Source: Candidatus Vogelbacteria bacterium (GTDB lineage: Bacteria > Patescibacteriota > Minisyncoccia > Phycocordibacterales > XYD1-FULL-46-19). From it: a DNA stretch of 13,715 nucleotides. Below, piece by piece: positions 666 through 6,487 of this stretch (position 1 is the first letter of the stretch; every line of letters starts with the position of its first letter). A program made the translations under genes and the position numbers. The notes under the pieces were generated by a model. That model had not been told where the DNA came from and searched no databases. It saw only the letters and a program-made list of their open reading frames with translations. The stretch covers positions 1 through 13,715 of the forward strand of contig DSBD01000037.1 of the NCBI GenBank assembly GCA_011049365.1, read 5' to 3'.

Positions 666-2387
666 ATGTTAGAAAAAAAGATAAAATTAGAAACGACCGA
701 GATTTTAAAAAAGATGGGTGTTCGTGGACCAAAATTTATAGTTGAACATCCAACTGATATGTCTTTAGGTGATTATTCTTTGAATGGCGCTTTAATTTAC
801 GGCAAAAAACTTAATAAAAATCCTCTAGATTTAGCGGTAGAAATAATTAGTGAATTAAAGAAAAGAAATATACCGGAAATTTCTAAAATGGACATTGCCG
901 GTTTTGGTTTTATAAATATCTTTTTGAAAGATGATTTCTTTGCTAATTCTTTAGAAAAAATAATAAAAAGTAGCCGTAATTTTGGAAAAATAAAATCAAA
1001 TCAAGGTAAAAAAATAGCAATAGAATATACTGACCCTAATCCTTTTAAAGAATTTCATATTGGTCATATGATGACTAATTTTATTGGCGAATCTTTGGCT
1101 AGGATTTTTGAATTTTCCGGAGCTGAAGTTAAGAGATTTTGTTATTCTGGTGATGTTGGTTTGCATGTTGCTAAAGCTATTTATGGTCTAAAACAAAATC
1201 TTCATCTTTTATTATGGCAGAAACTTTTTGGACAACAAACTAGTCGAGCCAGATTTTTGGGAGATTGTTATGCTTATGGAGATAAAAAATATCGTGAAGA
1301 TGAAAAAGCTCGTCAGCAAATAGTAGAAATTAATAAAGAAATTTATGGACAAAAAAAATTTTTAACTAAATTTATTTATAATTTAGGTCGGCAGTGGAGT
1401 TTGGATGAATTTGCTGAAATATATGATATTTTAGATACTAAATTTGATTTTAGTTTTTTTGAAAGCCAAACTGCCATTCGAGGTGTGGAATTAGTTAAAG
1501 AATATTTAGCCAAAGATATTTTTGTTTTTTCCGACCAAGCAATTATTTTCCCCGGCGAAAAATATAATCTCCACACCAGGGTCTTTATAAATTCCCATAA
1601 TTTGCCGACCTATGAAGCCAAAGATTTGGCTTTGGCAGAAATAAAGTACGAATCTTATCCTTATGATTTGTCTTTTATTGTTACCGGTAATGAAGTCAAT
1701 GATTATTTCGCTGTTGTTTTAAAAGCTTTGGAAGAAATTTATCCTAACTTAGCTCAGAGAACTAAACATATTGGTCATGGAATGTTAAAGTTACCTTCCG
1801 GTAAGATGTCATCGCGGACTGGTTCGGTTATTGCTTTTAAGAGCTTATTAAAAGATATAGAAAAAATAATAGAAGAAAAAATGTCTGAACGTTTATTATC
1901 TAAAAAAGAAAAACAGCAAGCTATTCAAGATATTGCTCTAGGTGCTTTACGTTTTGCTGTTCTTAAACAATCGCCCGGTAAAGATATAATTTTTGATTTT
2001 AATAAATCCCTTTCTTTTGAAGGAGATTCCGGTCCCTATCTTCAATATTCAGCCAGAAGAGCCGAGTCTTGTTTAGATGAAGCTAAAAAGATTGGCTTAG
2101 AATGTTCTTTTTCTCGTCCTGATAATTGGCCTTTAGAAAACTTAGAAAGATTATTGTATCGTTTTCCGGAAGAAGTGGCGCGAGCTGGAGAGAATTCTTC
2201 TCCTCAAATAATAATTTCTTATCTTTTAAATTTGGCCGGTAATTTTAACAATTTTTATTCGCGAGAAAAAATAGTTGATAAAGATGACCCAACAGCTAGT
2301 TATAAATTAGCTTTAACTATGGCCTTTTTTCAAGTTATGGAAAACGGCTTATATTTGCTTGGAATAAGAATTCCCAGTAAAATGTAA
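666..2387 (+). CDS. argS: Arginyl-tRNA synthetase
   Basis: Charges tRNA-Arg with arginine using ATP; class I, cytoplasmic, and requiring tRNA for activation. The 573-residue chain has the family layout. An N-terminal Add-1 domain covers roughly residues 1-110. The Rossmann core carries an exact HIGH motif (131-134, preceded by DPNPFKEF) and the second signature as KMSSR (380-384). The DALR anticodon-binding helical domain starts near the YLQYSARRAE stretch. The C-terminus ends in the usual ...LGIRIPSKM tail, so the protein is complete. The stop is TAA and the gap to ileS is only five bases, which implies cotranscription. No Shine-Dalgarno sequence is visible before the ATG. Confidence 0.96.
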   Translation: MLEKKIKLETTEILKKMGVRGPKFIVEHPTDMSLGDYSLNGALIYGKKLNKNPLDLAVEIISELKKRNIPEISKMDIAGFGFINIFLKDDFFANSLEKIIKSSRNFGKIKSNQGKKIAIEYTDPNPFKEFHIGHMMTNFIGESLARIFEFSGAEVKRFCYSGDVGLHVAKAIYGLKQNLHLLLWQKLFGQQTSRARFLGDCYAYGDKKYREDEKARQQIVEINKEIYGQKKFLTKFIYNLGRQWSLDEFAEIYDILDTKFDFSFFESQTAIRGVELVKEYLAKDIFVFSDQAIIFPGEKYNLHTRVFINSHNLPTYEAKDLALAEIKYESYPYDLSFIVTGNEVNDYFAVVLKALEEIYPNLAQRTKHIGHGMLKLPSGKMSSRTGSVIAFKSLLKDIEKIIEEKMSERLLSKKEKQQAIQDIALGALRFAVLKQSPGKDIIFDFNKSLSFEGDSGPYLQYSARRAESCLDEAKKIGLECSFSRPDNWPLENLERLLYRFPEEVARAGENSSPQIIISYLLNLAGNFNNFYSREKIVDKDDPTASYKLALTMAFFQVMENGLYLLGIRIPSKM

Positions 2388-2392
2388 TAACT

Positions 2393-5300
2393 ATGGATAA
2401 AGATGATAAAAAAAAGAGCAAAATTGCTCTTCAAGAAGAAGAAATTCTTAAATTTTGGTTAGTTAATAAAATATTTAAAAAGAGTTTAACCAAATCAAAT
2501 CCCCAAGGTGACTTTGTTATGTATGATGGTCCGCCTTTTGCTACCGGTGACCCGCATTATGGTCATATTTTGCCGACTTCGCTCAAAGATTTAATACCAA
2601 GATTTAAAACTATGAAAGGTTATCGTGTCGCTAGACGTTGGGGTTGGGATTGTCATGGTTTACCAATTGAAAATATTACTGAAAAAGAAATCGGTTTGGA
2701 GTCAAAGAGGGATATAATTGAGTATGGTCTTGATAAATTTAATCGCCAAGCTTCAGTTAGTGTTCTTCGTTGTGCTGGAGTTTGGCAAGAGTTAATTCCT
2801 AGAATGGGACGTTGGGTTGATATGGAGGATGATTATCGAACTATGGATACTGAATATACCGAGACTATCTGGTGGATTTTTAAAAGATTGTTTGACCAAG
2901 GATTAATTTATGAAGGTTTTAAATCACTTCATCTTTGCCCCAGGTGCGAAACTACTTTATCTAATTTTGAAGTTAATCAGGGTTATGCTGATATTGAAGA
3001 TATTTCAGTGATTGTTAAAATACCTTTGGTCGGTGAAAAAGATTCTTATTTACTTATTTGGACAACTACCCCCTGGACATTACCGGCCAATGTGGCGGTG
3101 GCTATTAATCCGGAATTTATTTATTGTCGAGTTGAGCATCAAGGACAATTTTATATTGTAGCTAAAAATTTGATTGAAAAAGTTTTTGGCAAAAAAGTAA
3201 AGATAATTGAAGAAATGTCCGGTAATAATTTAGTTGGTAAAGAATATCAACCGATTTTTTCATATTATCAACGTCAGGATATGGATAATGGTGATAAGGC
3301 CTGGAAAATATATCCAGCTAACTTTGTCTCTTTAGAAGAGGGAACCGGTCTGGTTCATATTGCTCCAGCTTTTGGAGAAGATGATTTGGAGCTAGCTAGG
3401 AAATTTTCCTTACCTCTTATTCAACATATTGGTCAAAATGGTCGCTTTTTATCTCAAATGGGTGATTTGGCTGGCTTGGTGGTTAAAACTAAAAATGATT
3501 CTAAAAGTATAGATGAAAAAATCTGTTCTCTTTTAGAAGAAAAAGATTTACTTTTTAAGCGTGAGAACATTATTCACTCTTATCCTCATTGTTGGCGTTG
3601 TGATACACCGCTTCTCAATTATGGAACTAATTCTTGGTTTGTTAAAGTTACTGACTTTAAAGATAAATTATTAAAAAATAATTCCCAAATAAATTGGGTT
3701 CCGGCACATATTAAAGAAGGCCGTTTTGGTAAATGGTTAGAAAATACTAGAGACTGGGCTATTTCTCGCTCTCGTTTTTGGGGAGCTTCAATTCCCGTCT
3801 GGGTTTGCGATTCTTGTCAGGGGAAAAAAGTTTTTGGTTCAATAACTGAATTAGAGGAAGCTCTACCATTAGCTAATAATCAATATTGGGTTATGCGTCA
3901 TGGCCAGGCCGAATCAAATGTTAAAAATATCTTAAGTTCTGCTCTTGATAATCAACATGACTTATCAGAGTTAGGGCGACAACAAGTAAAAGATAAAATA
4001 GCGGAACTTAAAAAGTTAGATATTGATTTAATAATTTATTCGCCGCTTTTAAGAACAAAAAACACTGCTTCCTTAGTGGCTAATTTGTTGGGATTAAAAG
4101 ATGACAAACTTATAGCCGATGAACGTTTGCGGGAAATAGAATTTGGTCAGTTTGAATTAAAATCAGTAGATGATTATATAAATCATTTTTCTGGCAATCT
4201 AGATCGTTTCGAAAGGGCGCCGGTGGGCGGAGAAAACTTGAAAGATGTTTTACAGAGAGTGTCCGATGTATTATTTGAAGTGGAAGAAAAATATAAAAAT
4301 AAAAAAATACTTTTTGTTACTCATGAGACTCCGGCTTGGCTTTTATTATCAGCCGGCGCTGGTTTTTCTATTCGCCAAATGATTAATATTAAAAATCATC
4401 ATCAAGATTTTATAGATACGGCTGATTATCGCCCCCTTAAATTATCAACTTTGCCCCGAAATGAATTTGGCGAGATAGATTTACATCGACCCTTTATAGA
4501 CCAAGCTCAACTTGATTGCTCTTGTGGTGGAAAATTGAAAAGAATAGAAGATGTTTTTGATTGTTGGTTTGAATCAGGAGCTATGCCTTATGGGCAAAGA
4601 CATTATCCCTTTAAGACTGAGGAAGATTTTCAACCTGATAAAGGAATTGGTTTACCGGCTGATTTCATTGCTGAAGGTCTTGACCAAACGAGAGGTTGGT
4701 TTTACTCACTTTTGGTTATTTCAACAGCTTTATTTGACCGCCCGGCTTACAAAAATGTAATAGTTAATGGAATAGTTTTGGCAGAAGACGGTCAAAAGAT
4801 GAGCAAACGATTAAAAAATTATCCTGATATTAGTGATATAGTTAATGATTATGGGGCTGATGCTTTAAGAATTTATCTTTTATCTTCACCAGTAGTTAGA
4901 GGTGAAGATTTTAGTTTTTCTACTAAGGGCCTAATGGAAGTTTCTCGTCGAATTATTTCTCGCTTAGATAATATTTTAATTTTTTATGAGACTTATGCTG
5001 ATAAGGATGTTCAAGCTGAGTTTAAAGATGATAATATATTGGATCATTGGATGAAGGCTCGCTTAGATTGTCTTACTTTAGAAATTGAAAAATTACTGGA
5101 AGCTTATGAAATTGATAAAGCTACCAAATTGCTAGATGGCTTAGTTGATGATTTTTCTACTTGGTACTTGCGTCGCTCACGCTCTCGTTTTAAAGATGAA
5201 GATATTAAGGAAAGAAAAAATGCCTCCGCAGCTCTTAAAAAAGCTCTTCATCATTCGGCTACTATTTTAGCGCCCTTTGCTCCCTTTATGGCCGAAAGAA

Positions 5301-5887
5301 TATATCAACAAATTCGTTCTAATGATGAACCCGAGAGTATTCATTTGACTTCTTGGCCGGAAATTGAGTCATTTGATAAAGAAATTTTAGAAAATATGGA
5401 AATTGCCAGAAAGATTTGTTCTTTAGCTCTTGAAAAACGTTCCCAGTTGGGCCTTAAAGTTCGTCAACCTTTGAAAACTTTATTCATCGGAGATGAAAAA
5501 ATTTCTAAACAAGAAGAATTGAAACAAATAATTAGCCAAGAAATAAATGTTAATGAAATTACTTTTGTAGCCGATAAAGAAGATAGCTATTTAGAATTAG
5601 ATAGTAATCTGACTCCTGAATTATTATTAGCTGGTCAATTAAGAGAATTTATCCGCCAGGTTCAGAATTTGAGAAAGAAAAATGGTTTTTCACCTAATGA
5701 TAAAGCTGATTTGAAAATTTATTGCAATTCTGATTTTGGAAAATTTTTGGAAAAATCAATTGATGATTTAAAACGGCAAGCTTCTTTAAGAGATATATCT
5801 ATTCAATCTTTTACTGATTCTCCTCACGAGGTAGAAAAGATTATTATAGATGATAAAAAAGTCGCCATTAATTTAAAAAAAGTTTAA
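2393..5887 (+). CDS. ileS: Isoleucyl-tRNA synthetase with inserted histidine-phosphatase domain
   Basis: Charges tRNA-Ile. At 1164 residues it is about 100-200 longer than ordinary IleS. The synthetase parts are complete: HYGH (55-58), a zinc knuckle split around the CP1 editing domain (Cys182/185 and Cys400/403), editing motif WTTTPWTLPAN (223-233), the DWAISRSRFWG core (454-464), KMSKR (802-806), an anticodon-binding domain and a DUF5915-like C-terminus as in archaeal/eukaryote-type IleS. Residues about 494-672 are foreign to IleS: a phosphoglycerate-mutase-like histidine phosphatase with Arg502-His503-Gly504, SPLLR (550-554), Glu581, GGEN (612-615) and His644. The insert lies between Cys472/Cys475 and Cys709/Cys711, which look like halves of a second zinc ribbon. 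The frame is continuous and base use is uniform. The synthetase call is certain; the role of the phosphatase is unknown. Confidence 0.96.
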   Translation: MDKDDKKKSKIALQEEEILKFWLVNKIFKKSLTKSNPQGDFVMYDGPPFATGDPHYGHILPTSLKDLIPRFKTMKGYRVARRWGWDCHGLPIENITEKEIGLESKRDIIEYGLDKFNRQASVSVLRCAGVWQELIPRMGRWVDMEDDYRTMDTEYTETIWWIFKRLFDQGLIYEGFKSLHLCPRCETTLSNFEVNQGYADIEDISVIVKIPLVGEKDSYLLIWTTTPWTLPANVAVAINPEFIYCRVEHQGQFYIVAKNLIEKVFGKKVKIIEEMSGNNLVGKEYQPIFSYYQRQDMDNGDKAWKIYPANFVSLEEGTGLVHIAPAFGEDDLELARKFSLPLIQHIGQNGRFLSQMGDLAGLVVKTKNDSKSIDEKICSLLEEKDLLFKRENIIHSYPHCWRCDTPLLNYGTNSWFVKVTDFKDKLLKNNSQINWVPAHIKEGRFGKWLENTRDWAISRSRFWGASIPVWVCDSCQGKKVFGSITELEEALPLANNQYWVMRHGQAESNVKNILSSALDNQHDLSELGRQQVKDKIAELKKLDIDLIIYSPLLRTKNTASLVANLLGLKDDKLIADERLREIEFGQFELKSVDDYINHFSGNLDRFERAPVGGENLKDVLQRVSDVLFEVEEKYKNKKILFVTHETPAWLLLSAGAGFSIRQMINIKNHHQDFIDTADYRPLKLSTLPRNEFGEIDLHRPFIDQAQLDCSCGGKLKRIEDVFDCWFESGAMPYGQRHYPFKTEEDFQPDKGIGLPADFIAEGLDQTRGWFYSLLVISTALFDRPAYKNVIVNGIVLAEDGQKMSKRLKNYPDISDIVNDYGADALRIYLLSSPVVRGEDFSFSTKGLMEVSRRIISRLDNILIFYETYADKDVQAEFKDDNILDHWMKARLDCLTLEIEKLLEAYEIDKATKLLDGLVDDFSTWYLRRSRSRFKDEDIKERKNASAALKKALHHSATILAPFAPFMAERIYQQIRSNDEPESIHLTSWPEIESFDKEILENMEIARKICSLALEKRSQLGLKVRQPLKTLFIGDEKISKQEELKQIISQEINVNEITFVADKEDSYLELDSNLTPELLLAGQLREFIRQVQNLRKKNGFSPNDKADLKIYCNSDFGKFLEKSIDDLKRQASLRDISIQSFTDSPHEVEKIIIDDKKVAINLKKV
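3872..4408 (+). other. Histidine-phosphatase domain encoded inside ileS
   Basis: This is the coding span for IleS residues about 494-672. It reads as a full histidine-phosphatase-superfamily fold. The phospho-accepting His503 sits in Y-W-V-M-R-H-G. The second arginine, Arg554, is in SPLLRTKNTA, the acidic residue Glu581 in LREIEFGQFE, and the second histidine, His644, in LFVTHETP. A GGEN loop stands where family members usually have GGES. Having all the phosphate-pocket residues predicts activity, not mere scaffolding. The substrate cannot be told from sequence. Domain edges are approximate: synthetase-like sequence ends near SITELEEAL (483-491) and resumes by DLHRPFID (696-703). Confidence 0.88.
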
Positions 5888-5893
5888 AAATAA

Positions 5894-6487
5894 ATGTCTC
5901 ATTTTATCTATCAAACAGAGGGCTTTATATTAAAAAGAGAATACTGGAATGAGATTGATTTACGACTTTTGGTTTTAACTAGAGAATTGGGTCTATTGTG
6001 GGTAGAGGCTAAAGGAATTAGAGTCTTAAAATCAAAACTAAGGTATCATCTCAATTTATATTCTTTAGCTAATTTTTCTTTAATATCAACCAAAGCTGAC
6101 TATTGGCGTTTGGTTGGAGTAGAAACAATTAGCCAGAATTCACCTTTTCTTTTTTCCATTTCTCGTCGTTTTTTAGTCGCCAATTGGTCATCTTTGATAA
6201 ATAGGTTATTGGGCCAGAGAGATAAATATTCTTCTCTTTATGATGATTTAATTGCTTGCCTATTTATTTTAGCTAATCGGGAATTAACTATTGACCAAAT
6301 AAAATCTTTAGAGATTGTTTTCAATTTGCGCCTTTTATCTCATTTAGGTTATCGGCCCCTACCAAAATTTTGCCAAGAATTTTTGGCGGTTGATGATTGG
6401 CAAACTAAAGCTATATCAATTGAAAAAAATAAACGTCAAGCTTTTATCAGGGAAATAAATGAATCAATTAATTTGACTAATTTATAG
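5894..6487 (+). CDS. recO: DNA repair protein RecO
   Basis: RecO works with RecR (and RecF) to load RecA onto single-stranded DNA and to anneal strands during gap repair. The N-terminus is characteristic: an OB-fold opening with EGFILKREYWNEIDLRLLVLT followed by an Ala-Lys-Gly-Ile-Arg segment, then a helical C-terminal half. At 197 residues it is shorter than the usual 230-250. It has no cysteine cluster, so the zinc finger seen in some RecO proteins is missing. The reading frame is clean and ends in TAG. It begins six bases after ileS and is probably the last gene of that run. The N-terminal match is good and the C-terminal half is weakly conserved. Confidence 0.82.
   Translation: MSHFIYQTEGFILKREYWNEIDLRLLVLTRELGLLWVEAKGIRVLKSKLRYHLNLYSLANFSLISTKADYWRLVGVETISQNSPFLFSISRRFLVANWSSLINRLLGQRDKYSSLYDDLIACLFILANRELTIDQIKSLEIVFNLRLLSHLGYRPLPKFCQEFLAVDDWQTKAISIEKNKRQAFIREINESINLTNL

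Follow-up and report, generated by a model that had tools for sequence, protein, structure and literature searches.

The stretch of DNA analysed here (the window) is a whole contig of 13,715 bases, DSBD01000037.1, from assembly GCA_011049365.1 of a Candidatus Vogelbacteria bacterium, a member of the Patescibacteriota. Its ileS gene encodes an isoleucyl-tRNA synthetase (IleRS) that encloses a complete branch-1 histidine phosphatase domain (PF00300), assigned by profile and motifs and predicted to be catalytic. The protein scores 873.9 bits against TIGR00392, the NCBIfam ileS equivalog, for which the cut-off is 621.4. The gene has the following features.

2393..5887, plus strand: ileS, IleRS with embedded phosphatase, 1164 aa (open frame throughout, TIGR00392 match)
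2393..3856, plus strand: N-terminal IleRS part with HIGH-type motif, editing region and first half of the CxxC...CxC module (PF00133, residues 18 to 491)
3806..3817, plus strand: Cys472 and Cys475, which form the first half of the zinc-type module that the insert interrupts (residue conservation in 80 named loci)
3857..4471, plus strand: inserted module, about residues 489-693, missing from insert-free homologues that align on either side
3887..4396, plus strand: His_Phos_1 (PF00300) match in the inserted module, residues 499-668 (profile searches)
3896..3901, plus strand: Arg502-His503 of the RH(G) motif, including the nucleophilic histidine, kept in 177/177 distinct IleRS inserts
4052..4054, plus strand: Arg554, phosphate-pocket arginine, kept in 177/177
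4133..4135, plus strand: Glu581, candidate general acid, Glu in 169 and Asp in 8 of the 177
4232..4234, plus strand: Glu614 (GGEN motif), invariant in two alignments (A3 and A6) and general in stand-alone relatives
4256..4258, plus strand: Arg622, invariant in the same two alignments and general in stand-alone relatives
4322..4324, plus strand: His644, second catalytic histidine, kept in 177/177
4472..5884, plus strand: C-terminal IleRS part with DLHRPFID, KMSKR, anticodon-binding domain (PF08264, residues 884-1029) and DUF5915 (PF19302, residues 1062-1164)
4517..4525, plus strand: Cys709 and Cys711, the half of the zinc-type module that follows the insert (read from the translation)

The first-pass annotation, made from the sequence alone, had proposed a histidine phosphatase at residues 494-672 within a continuous IleRS frame, with the RHG motif, Arg554, Glu581 and His644 all retained. 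The open frame and the TIGR00392 score bear out the embedding. The domain scan that it had asked for returned a significant match, since PF00300 hits the window protein with an E-value of 3.5e-31 (108.8 bits against a cut-off of 21.7), and in sequence alignment Arg502-His503-Gly504, Arg554, Glu581 and His644 all fall on positions that the family conserves. The conversion of residues 494-672 to nucleotides 3872-4408 was correct, but the module itself is slightly longer, spanning about residues 489-693. Alignment with insert-free IleRS proteins places it between the two halves of the CxxC...CxC module, which is of a presumed zinc-binding type. The N-terminal part (about residues 1-490) is 42-56% identical to the insert-free IleRS of six related genomes (G036, G068, G015, G069, G043 and G087). 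Beside the intact catalytic set of the insert, Cys472 is kept in 46 and Cys475 in 45 of the 80 named loci.

Structural modelling agrees with the sequence assignment of the host enzyme. The AlphaFold2 model of the whole protein has a predicted local distance difference test score (pLDDT) of 92.5 and a predicted template modelling score of 0.87, and the insert modelled alone reaches a pLDDT of 96.3. The top Foldseek matches of the window protein are type-2 IleRS structures (Priestia megaterium IleRS2, 8c9d/8c8v), and the whole scaffold is shared with these and with the Thermus (1ile) and yeast (8wnd) enzymes at E-values down to 2.5e-90; none of the titles of these entries names an inserted phosphatase. 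By profile and modelled fold, the ileS product is a type-2-like IleRS, predicted to charge tRNA-Ile. A small catalytic domain within IleRS has a precedent in NF040702 (ileS_w_GNAT), although, judging by the model name, the domain there is a GNAT and not a phosphatase; the window protein has no GNAT match and scores 289.7 bits against the NF040702 cut-off of 1999.

Occurrence and conservation of the insert

Our sampling covered the Patescibacteria, and the figures on spread apply to that phylum. Among 99 related genomes, including the window's own, at least 88 encode the insert within an IleRS frame: 83 were established by comparing places by eye, to which four loci (L005, L016, L057 and L067) and genome G014 (locus L267) were added. 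The rest comprise six genomes whose IleRS has no insert (G015, G036, G043, G068, G069 and G087), three in which contig ends cut the gene (G003, G006 and G031) and two without a proper IleRS match (G052 and G073). A wider sample of the class (142 genomes) contains 94 with a PF00300 match in a frame of at least 600 residues and 24 without a match; the 25 long frames that were examined individually were all IleRS (25/25). In a sample of the phylum (145 genomes), the embedded match is present in 9/9 members of the window's class, and at least 14/136 genomes of other classes have a phosphatase in IleRS or valyl-tRNA synthetase (ValRS). Named relatives with the insert, taken as the best 80 of 203 confirmed and partly overlapping with the other sampled genomes, include Nomura-, Taylor-, Zambryski-, Kaiser-, Adler-, Wolfe-, Yonath-, Lloyd-, Vogel- and Colwellbacteria. 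The tentative mention, in the first-pass annotation, of similar inserts in other Patescibacteria was therefore right. It had also named confinement to a single assembly as a ground for doubt; the insert is carried by many independent assemblies, which rules out an assembly artefact or chance as its source. The same kind of IleRS with insert occurs in a record named Spirochaetia bacterium (L087), which we guess to be mislabelled or a mixed bin.

The insert is far more variable in sequence than the enzyme around it, and its catalytic residues stand out against this variation. In the window protein and 29 relatives, mean pairwise identity is 40% for the insert versus 63% and 61% for the flanking synthetase parts; the catalytic set is intact in all 30 of these proteins, as it is in 80/80 named loci. 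The fetched IleRS frames with an insert number 197, of which 177 are distinct. At the five catalytic positions (Arg502, His503, Arg554, Glu581 and His644) 169 of the distinct proteins read R-H-R-E-H and 8 read R-H-R-D-H, a tally that takes the first domain only in doubled proteins and comes from a sample largely gathered by domain search, so that strongly decayed copies could escape it. Free loss of the catalytic histidines and arginines, another ground for doubt raised at the outset, is not what we find: all 177 keep Arg502, His503, Arg554 and His644. Across residues 499-668, an alignment of 73 full-length IleRS has nine invariant columns, and all five catalytic residues are among them; by our own arithmetic, nine randomly placed invariant columns would include these five with a chance of about 1e-7. 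One insert (L067 of genome G077) has lost about 33 internal residues and keeps the catalytic set. Of 22 same-genus pairs, 11 have an insert dS that is not saturated; in these 11 the ratio of nonsynonymous to synonymous divergence (dN/dS) of the insert, roughly estimated with a Nei-Gojobori script, lies within 0.04-0.42, and the two highest values come from pairs with very unlike inserts.

Thus, the insert is under purifying selection and its catalytic residues are kept. Since stand-alone relatives conserve the same catalytic residues, these mark a working enzyme of the family and nothing specific to the insert. The earlier suggestion of selection for a phosphatase activity tied to the synthetase gains support from the catalytic set in 177/177 proteins (with Asp for Glu581 in 8) and from the dN/dS range, and further from the free genes and ValRS inserts described below.

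Free genes, ValRS inserts and repeated acquisition

The phosphatase is met not only within ileS but also next to it. In six genomes (G502, G481, G579, G542, G438 and G364) an argS match is followed by a free phosphatase frame of 183-209 residues and then by an ileS without the insert. Measured from stop to stop, these frames overlap their neighbours by a few to about seventy bases, the exception being G502, where a 322-base gap follows argS. Genome G421 has the order argS-phosphatase-ileS with looser gaps, and G519 has a free phosphatase near ileS. The neighbours of ileS in the window are these.

666..2387, plus strand: argS, upstream neighbour of ileS, named from our reading of the translation
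5894..6487, plus strand: recO-like gene, downstream neighbour of ileS, likewise named from our reading

A recO-like neighbour is also found 3' of ileS in five genomes with a free-standing phosphatase (blastp matches in L235, L242, L243, L245 and L246). In the phosphatase tree, the six genes between argS and ileS, together with the free genes of G271, G581 and G512, fall inside the clade of order and class inserts (95/96 support), and those of G421 and G519 fall just outside it. This nested position makes it likelier that the free gene beside ileS arose by fission than that it represents an ancestral state, with the bootstrap still unsettled on the point.

The free-standing versions suggest that the module can work as a protein of its own, which argues against a mere spacer. 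A non-catalytic spacer or a metabolite sensor, shaping tRNA binding or tuning charging, would fit the location of the insert in the zinc-type module of the catalytic half, and also the normal appearance of IleRS once the insert is lost. However, with catalytic residues preserved at about 40% identity and the same module existing as a separate protein, we regard this as the least probable of the explanations considered, and hardly to be expected; the same two observations make a pure sensor role less likely.

Embedding is not restricted to IleRS. A phosphatase domain is present in 13 distinct ValRS proteins, and in the five that we examined it follows an ISRQ...-type stretch ending in P[VA]WY and precedes DTWFSS, the counterpart of the IleRS site; the remaining ValRS inserts show the same order of domain matches. 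Some IleRS proteins have more than one copy or a different site. Two phosphatase domains are present in several members of family f149 (L033, L034, L190, L193 and L252), while L039 of the same family shows one. The 1451-aa IleRS of G143 (L045:3338-7690, minus strand) carries its phosphatase beyond the KMSKS half, at a second site, and that of G458 (L249) has one domain at each of two sites.

The trees, which are not fully settled, include some long rows and sample 17-18 stand-alone genes, group the IleRS inserts with two ValRS inserts (L051 and L052) and place the majority of the other ValRS inserts, as well as the second copies of tandem pairs, among stand-alone phosphatases. Read in this way, they require several independent acquisitions of a phosphatase by synthetases; a single origin of all synthetase-borne copies finds no support in them. 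The histidine phosphatase is thus a recurring partner of ileS and valS and not the product of one insertion, and this repeated linkage points to a job tied to these two enzymes.

Fusions of histidine phosphatases to other enzymes were also met in the phylum. Two frames (L037:2764-4413 and L041:2488-4143, both on the minus strand) join a SerA-like 2-hydroxyacid dehydrogenase to a histidine phosphatase, a fusion that may cover two steps of serine synthesis. A pyruvate kinase frame has an N-terminal histidine phosphatase (L056:1722-3179, plus strand), and a 665-aa frame combines a nucleotidyltransferase match with one (L058:1153-3147, plus strand). On a viral contig, the translation of L032:4980-5975 (plus strand) reads as histidine phosphatase-like in its first half and cytidylyltransferase-like in its second. 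This is the sole viral-contig match; being a separate phosphatase-like gene of 35% identity and not a synthetase, it led us to reject a viral origin of the insert.

Possible roles of the synthetase-borne phosphatase

The reading that we favour, tentatively and at a little short of an even chance, is that the insert may be a phosphomonoesterase whose substrate is a small phosphorylated compound, one that either arises at the synthetase or does it harm, and that the enzyme may be a partner of isoleucine or valine charging. It would be a metal-independent, catalytically competent enzyme of branch 1. By the established chemistry of the histidine phosphatase family, His503 would accept the phosphate, Arg502, Arg554 and His644 would hold it and Glu581 would give the proton. 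The phosphatase would then be a semi-autonomous partner of isoleucyl-tRNA charging, and in some lineages of valyl-tRNA charging, acting in cis when embedded in the synthetase and in trans when encoded by an adjoining gene. The candidate substrate is a small phosphorylated nucleotide or a compound of the aminoacyl-nucleotide type, which may be a by-product or an inhibitor of the synthetase.

The closest matches by solved fold and by sequence are for the most part small-molecule phosphatases, among them PspA (4ij5/4ij6), CobC (6e4b, 6nru), PhoE/YhfR (1ebb, 1h2e) and Rv2419c (4pz9). They share the fold of the insert, with template modelling scores of 0.72-0.80 over the query, and in sequence alignment its RHG, R, E and H motifs. 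However, these are separate proteins, whereas the insert, 22-27% identical to them, is embedded in a tRNA synthetase or encoded beside one. The bifunctional RNase H/acid phosphatase NF005567 similarly unites a phosphatase and a nucleic-acid enzyme in one protein, and its phosphatase part matches the insert with 82.3 bits; it differs in that the partner is RNase H and not a synthetase, and the score stays below the cut-off of 326. The two domains of NF005567 are presumably arranged end-to-end rather than one inside the other.

The specific profiles stop short of a substrate. The window protein or its insert remains below the cut-offs for 2,3-bisphosphoglycerate-dependent phosphoglycerate mutase (NF038349, 94.7 bits against 225; TIGR01258, 16.7 for the insert alone against 81.7), for alpha-ribazole phosphatase CobC (TIGR03162, 77.0 bits, or 82.0 for the insert alone, against 162.9) and for phosphoserine phosphatase PspA (NF045917, 62.2 bits, or 66.5 for the insert alone, against 350). 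The SixA model TIGR00249 matches weakly (30.1 bits for the insert alone against 74.5). This last result bears on the possibility that the domain acts on a macromolecule, stripping phosphate from the synthetase itself or from tRNA, for instance once a kinase toxin has modified either of them. Branch-1 relatives such as SixA and PGAM5 do act on phosphoproteins, and kinase toxins that hit other synthetases are known. Given that the similarity of the insert is to small-molecule phosphatases and that the SixA match is weak, we consider a protein or RNA phosphatase very unlikely.

Several observations weigh against a small-molecule phosphatase coupled to charging, the reading we favour. Because the PspA, CobC and phosphoglycerate mutase cut-offs are not reached, its substrate cannot be named from the sequence. 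A catalytic residue is missing from two of the 14 ValRS domain rows (His644 from L052, Glu581 from L177), and ValRS inserts are rare, being found in at least 11/379 genomes of the phylum plus one fragment. Of 13 free-standing genes in the class, five (G271, G581, G512, G574 and G498) lie apart from ileS as far as the fetched stretch shows. Moreover, 6/99 relatives have an IleRS without the insert, and PF00300 matches nothing whatever in two of these genomes, G043 (99% complete) and G069. In the HIGH region, the IleRS proteins of G015, G069, G043 and G087 (L062, L063, L064 and L065) have GPPTAN where the window reads GPPFAT, and the ileS genes of these four look like replacements by the gene of another lineage, whereas G036 and G068 look like losses of the insert. 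Either way, the six relatives indicate that the insert is dispensable and its coupling not obligatory; the phosphatase function is useful rather than essential.

The main rival explanation is that the domain is a passenger, an ordinary metabolic phosphatase lodged in an essential gene for retention and co-expression in a shrinking genome, without any link to charging. In the genome search, the insert is indeed the sole PF00300 match at E <= 0.001 (E-value 2.4e-33) in its own genome, which is 83% complete. The insert clade also has free genes that lie away from ileS, in G271 and G581, and related phosphatases are fused elsewhere in the phylum to other enzymes (two SerA-like, one pyruvate kinase and one nucleotidyltransferase match). 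A passenger, however, would be expected in more of the other essential genes. Among the 27 long-frame PF00300 places fetched outside the window, 23 are IleRS or ValRS and 4 are other fusions, a tally of the identified frames among the matches listed, further long frames being present in, e.g., G418, G273, G321 and G366. Several acquisitions, tandem copies and the use of two sites are also difficult to square with mere lodging, and on balance we consider a passenger unlikely. One specific metabolic role can be set aside as a general explanation, namely the replacement of a missing phosphoglycerate mutase: PF06415 (iPGM) matches in 13 of 31 genomes, 12 of the matches being over the cut-off, and several of these genomes also carry the insert, which for its part stays below the cut-offs of the phosphoglycerate mutase models given above. 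The window's own genome has no PF06415 match.

A different set of observations raises the possibility of built-in protection, in which the domain would destroy phosphorylated or aminoacyl-nucleotide-type inhibitors of IleRS or ValRS at their target. Some of the synthetases have further enzyme-like domains. The IleRS of G143 (L045) has a GNAT acetyltransferase match after its DCWFESG motif, and two ValRS proteins of about 1280 aa (L250:327-4157, plus strand, in G325; L251:695-4537, plus strand, in G462) have a serine hydrolase match (Ser_hydrolase, PF06821) shortly N-terminal of the phosphatase, to which L250 adds an HAD match at residues 229-342. Microcin C immunity enzymes include the GNAT MccE, the peptidase MccF and the HIT phosphoramidase MccH (PMC7157772, PMC9239234), and homologues of MccH have been cloned from Parcubacteria, one of which is named as inactive against microcin C (PMC7157772). 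In enzyme type, the extra domains recall these enzymes. The immunity enzymes, however, are separate proteins directed against an inhibitor of aspartyl-tRNA synthetase, and none of the three is a histidine phosphatase. In addition, DxDx[TSAG] is missing from the HAD match of L250, as is a strict GxSxG from the serine hydrolase matches.

The inserts also behave as if they were exchangeable cassettes. The inserts of L003 and L070 are 71% identical and their cores 57%; this pairing has 100/100 support in the insert tree and appears in 0% of the bootstrap trees of the core. A similar conflict is seen for L146 and L135. For the two other suspected pairs the insert and core trees agree, so that exchange is rejected for these; thus, it is in two of four tested pairs that cassettes appear to have passed between lineages. 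Tandem copies and sporadic loss would suit a changing threat. The exchange, which also speaks for protection, may reflect homologous recombination only, and we know of no such inhibitor for these bacteria. We therefore hold built-in protection to be doubtful, ranking just behind the passenger. By analogy, it could be widened to a picture of IleRS and ValRS as protected synthetases, in which exchangeable catalytic cassettes, housed within the enzyme or next to it, break down natural inhibitors that are phosphorylated or of the adenylate type and are themselves kept diverse by recombination; this broader version appears less probable still. If true, it would amount to in-cis resistance built into an essential enzyme, with cassettes that are single, doubled or at two sites, some accompanied by GNAT, serine hydrolase or HAD domains.

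Few enzymes are as highly conserved as the aminoacyl-tRNA synthetases, and the catalytic domains known to us to be inserted in them mostly proofread. A search of the full-text literature, mostly outside subscription journals and outside bioRxiv preprints and judged from titles and the starts of abstracts, found no description of a phosphatase within IleRS or ValRS. No model of a phosphatase-bearing IleRS is among the Pfam and NCBIfam matches shown, whereas the GNAT-bearing form has one (NF040702). What is new is therefore the recurrent partnership of a known enzyme domain with a synthetase. An apparently active phosphatase that is found across much of a Patescibacteria class and has been recruited several times points to a chemical problem tied to the charging of isoleucine and valine, and the partnership may bear on how translation is protected or tuned in host-dependent bacteria with very small genomes.

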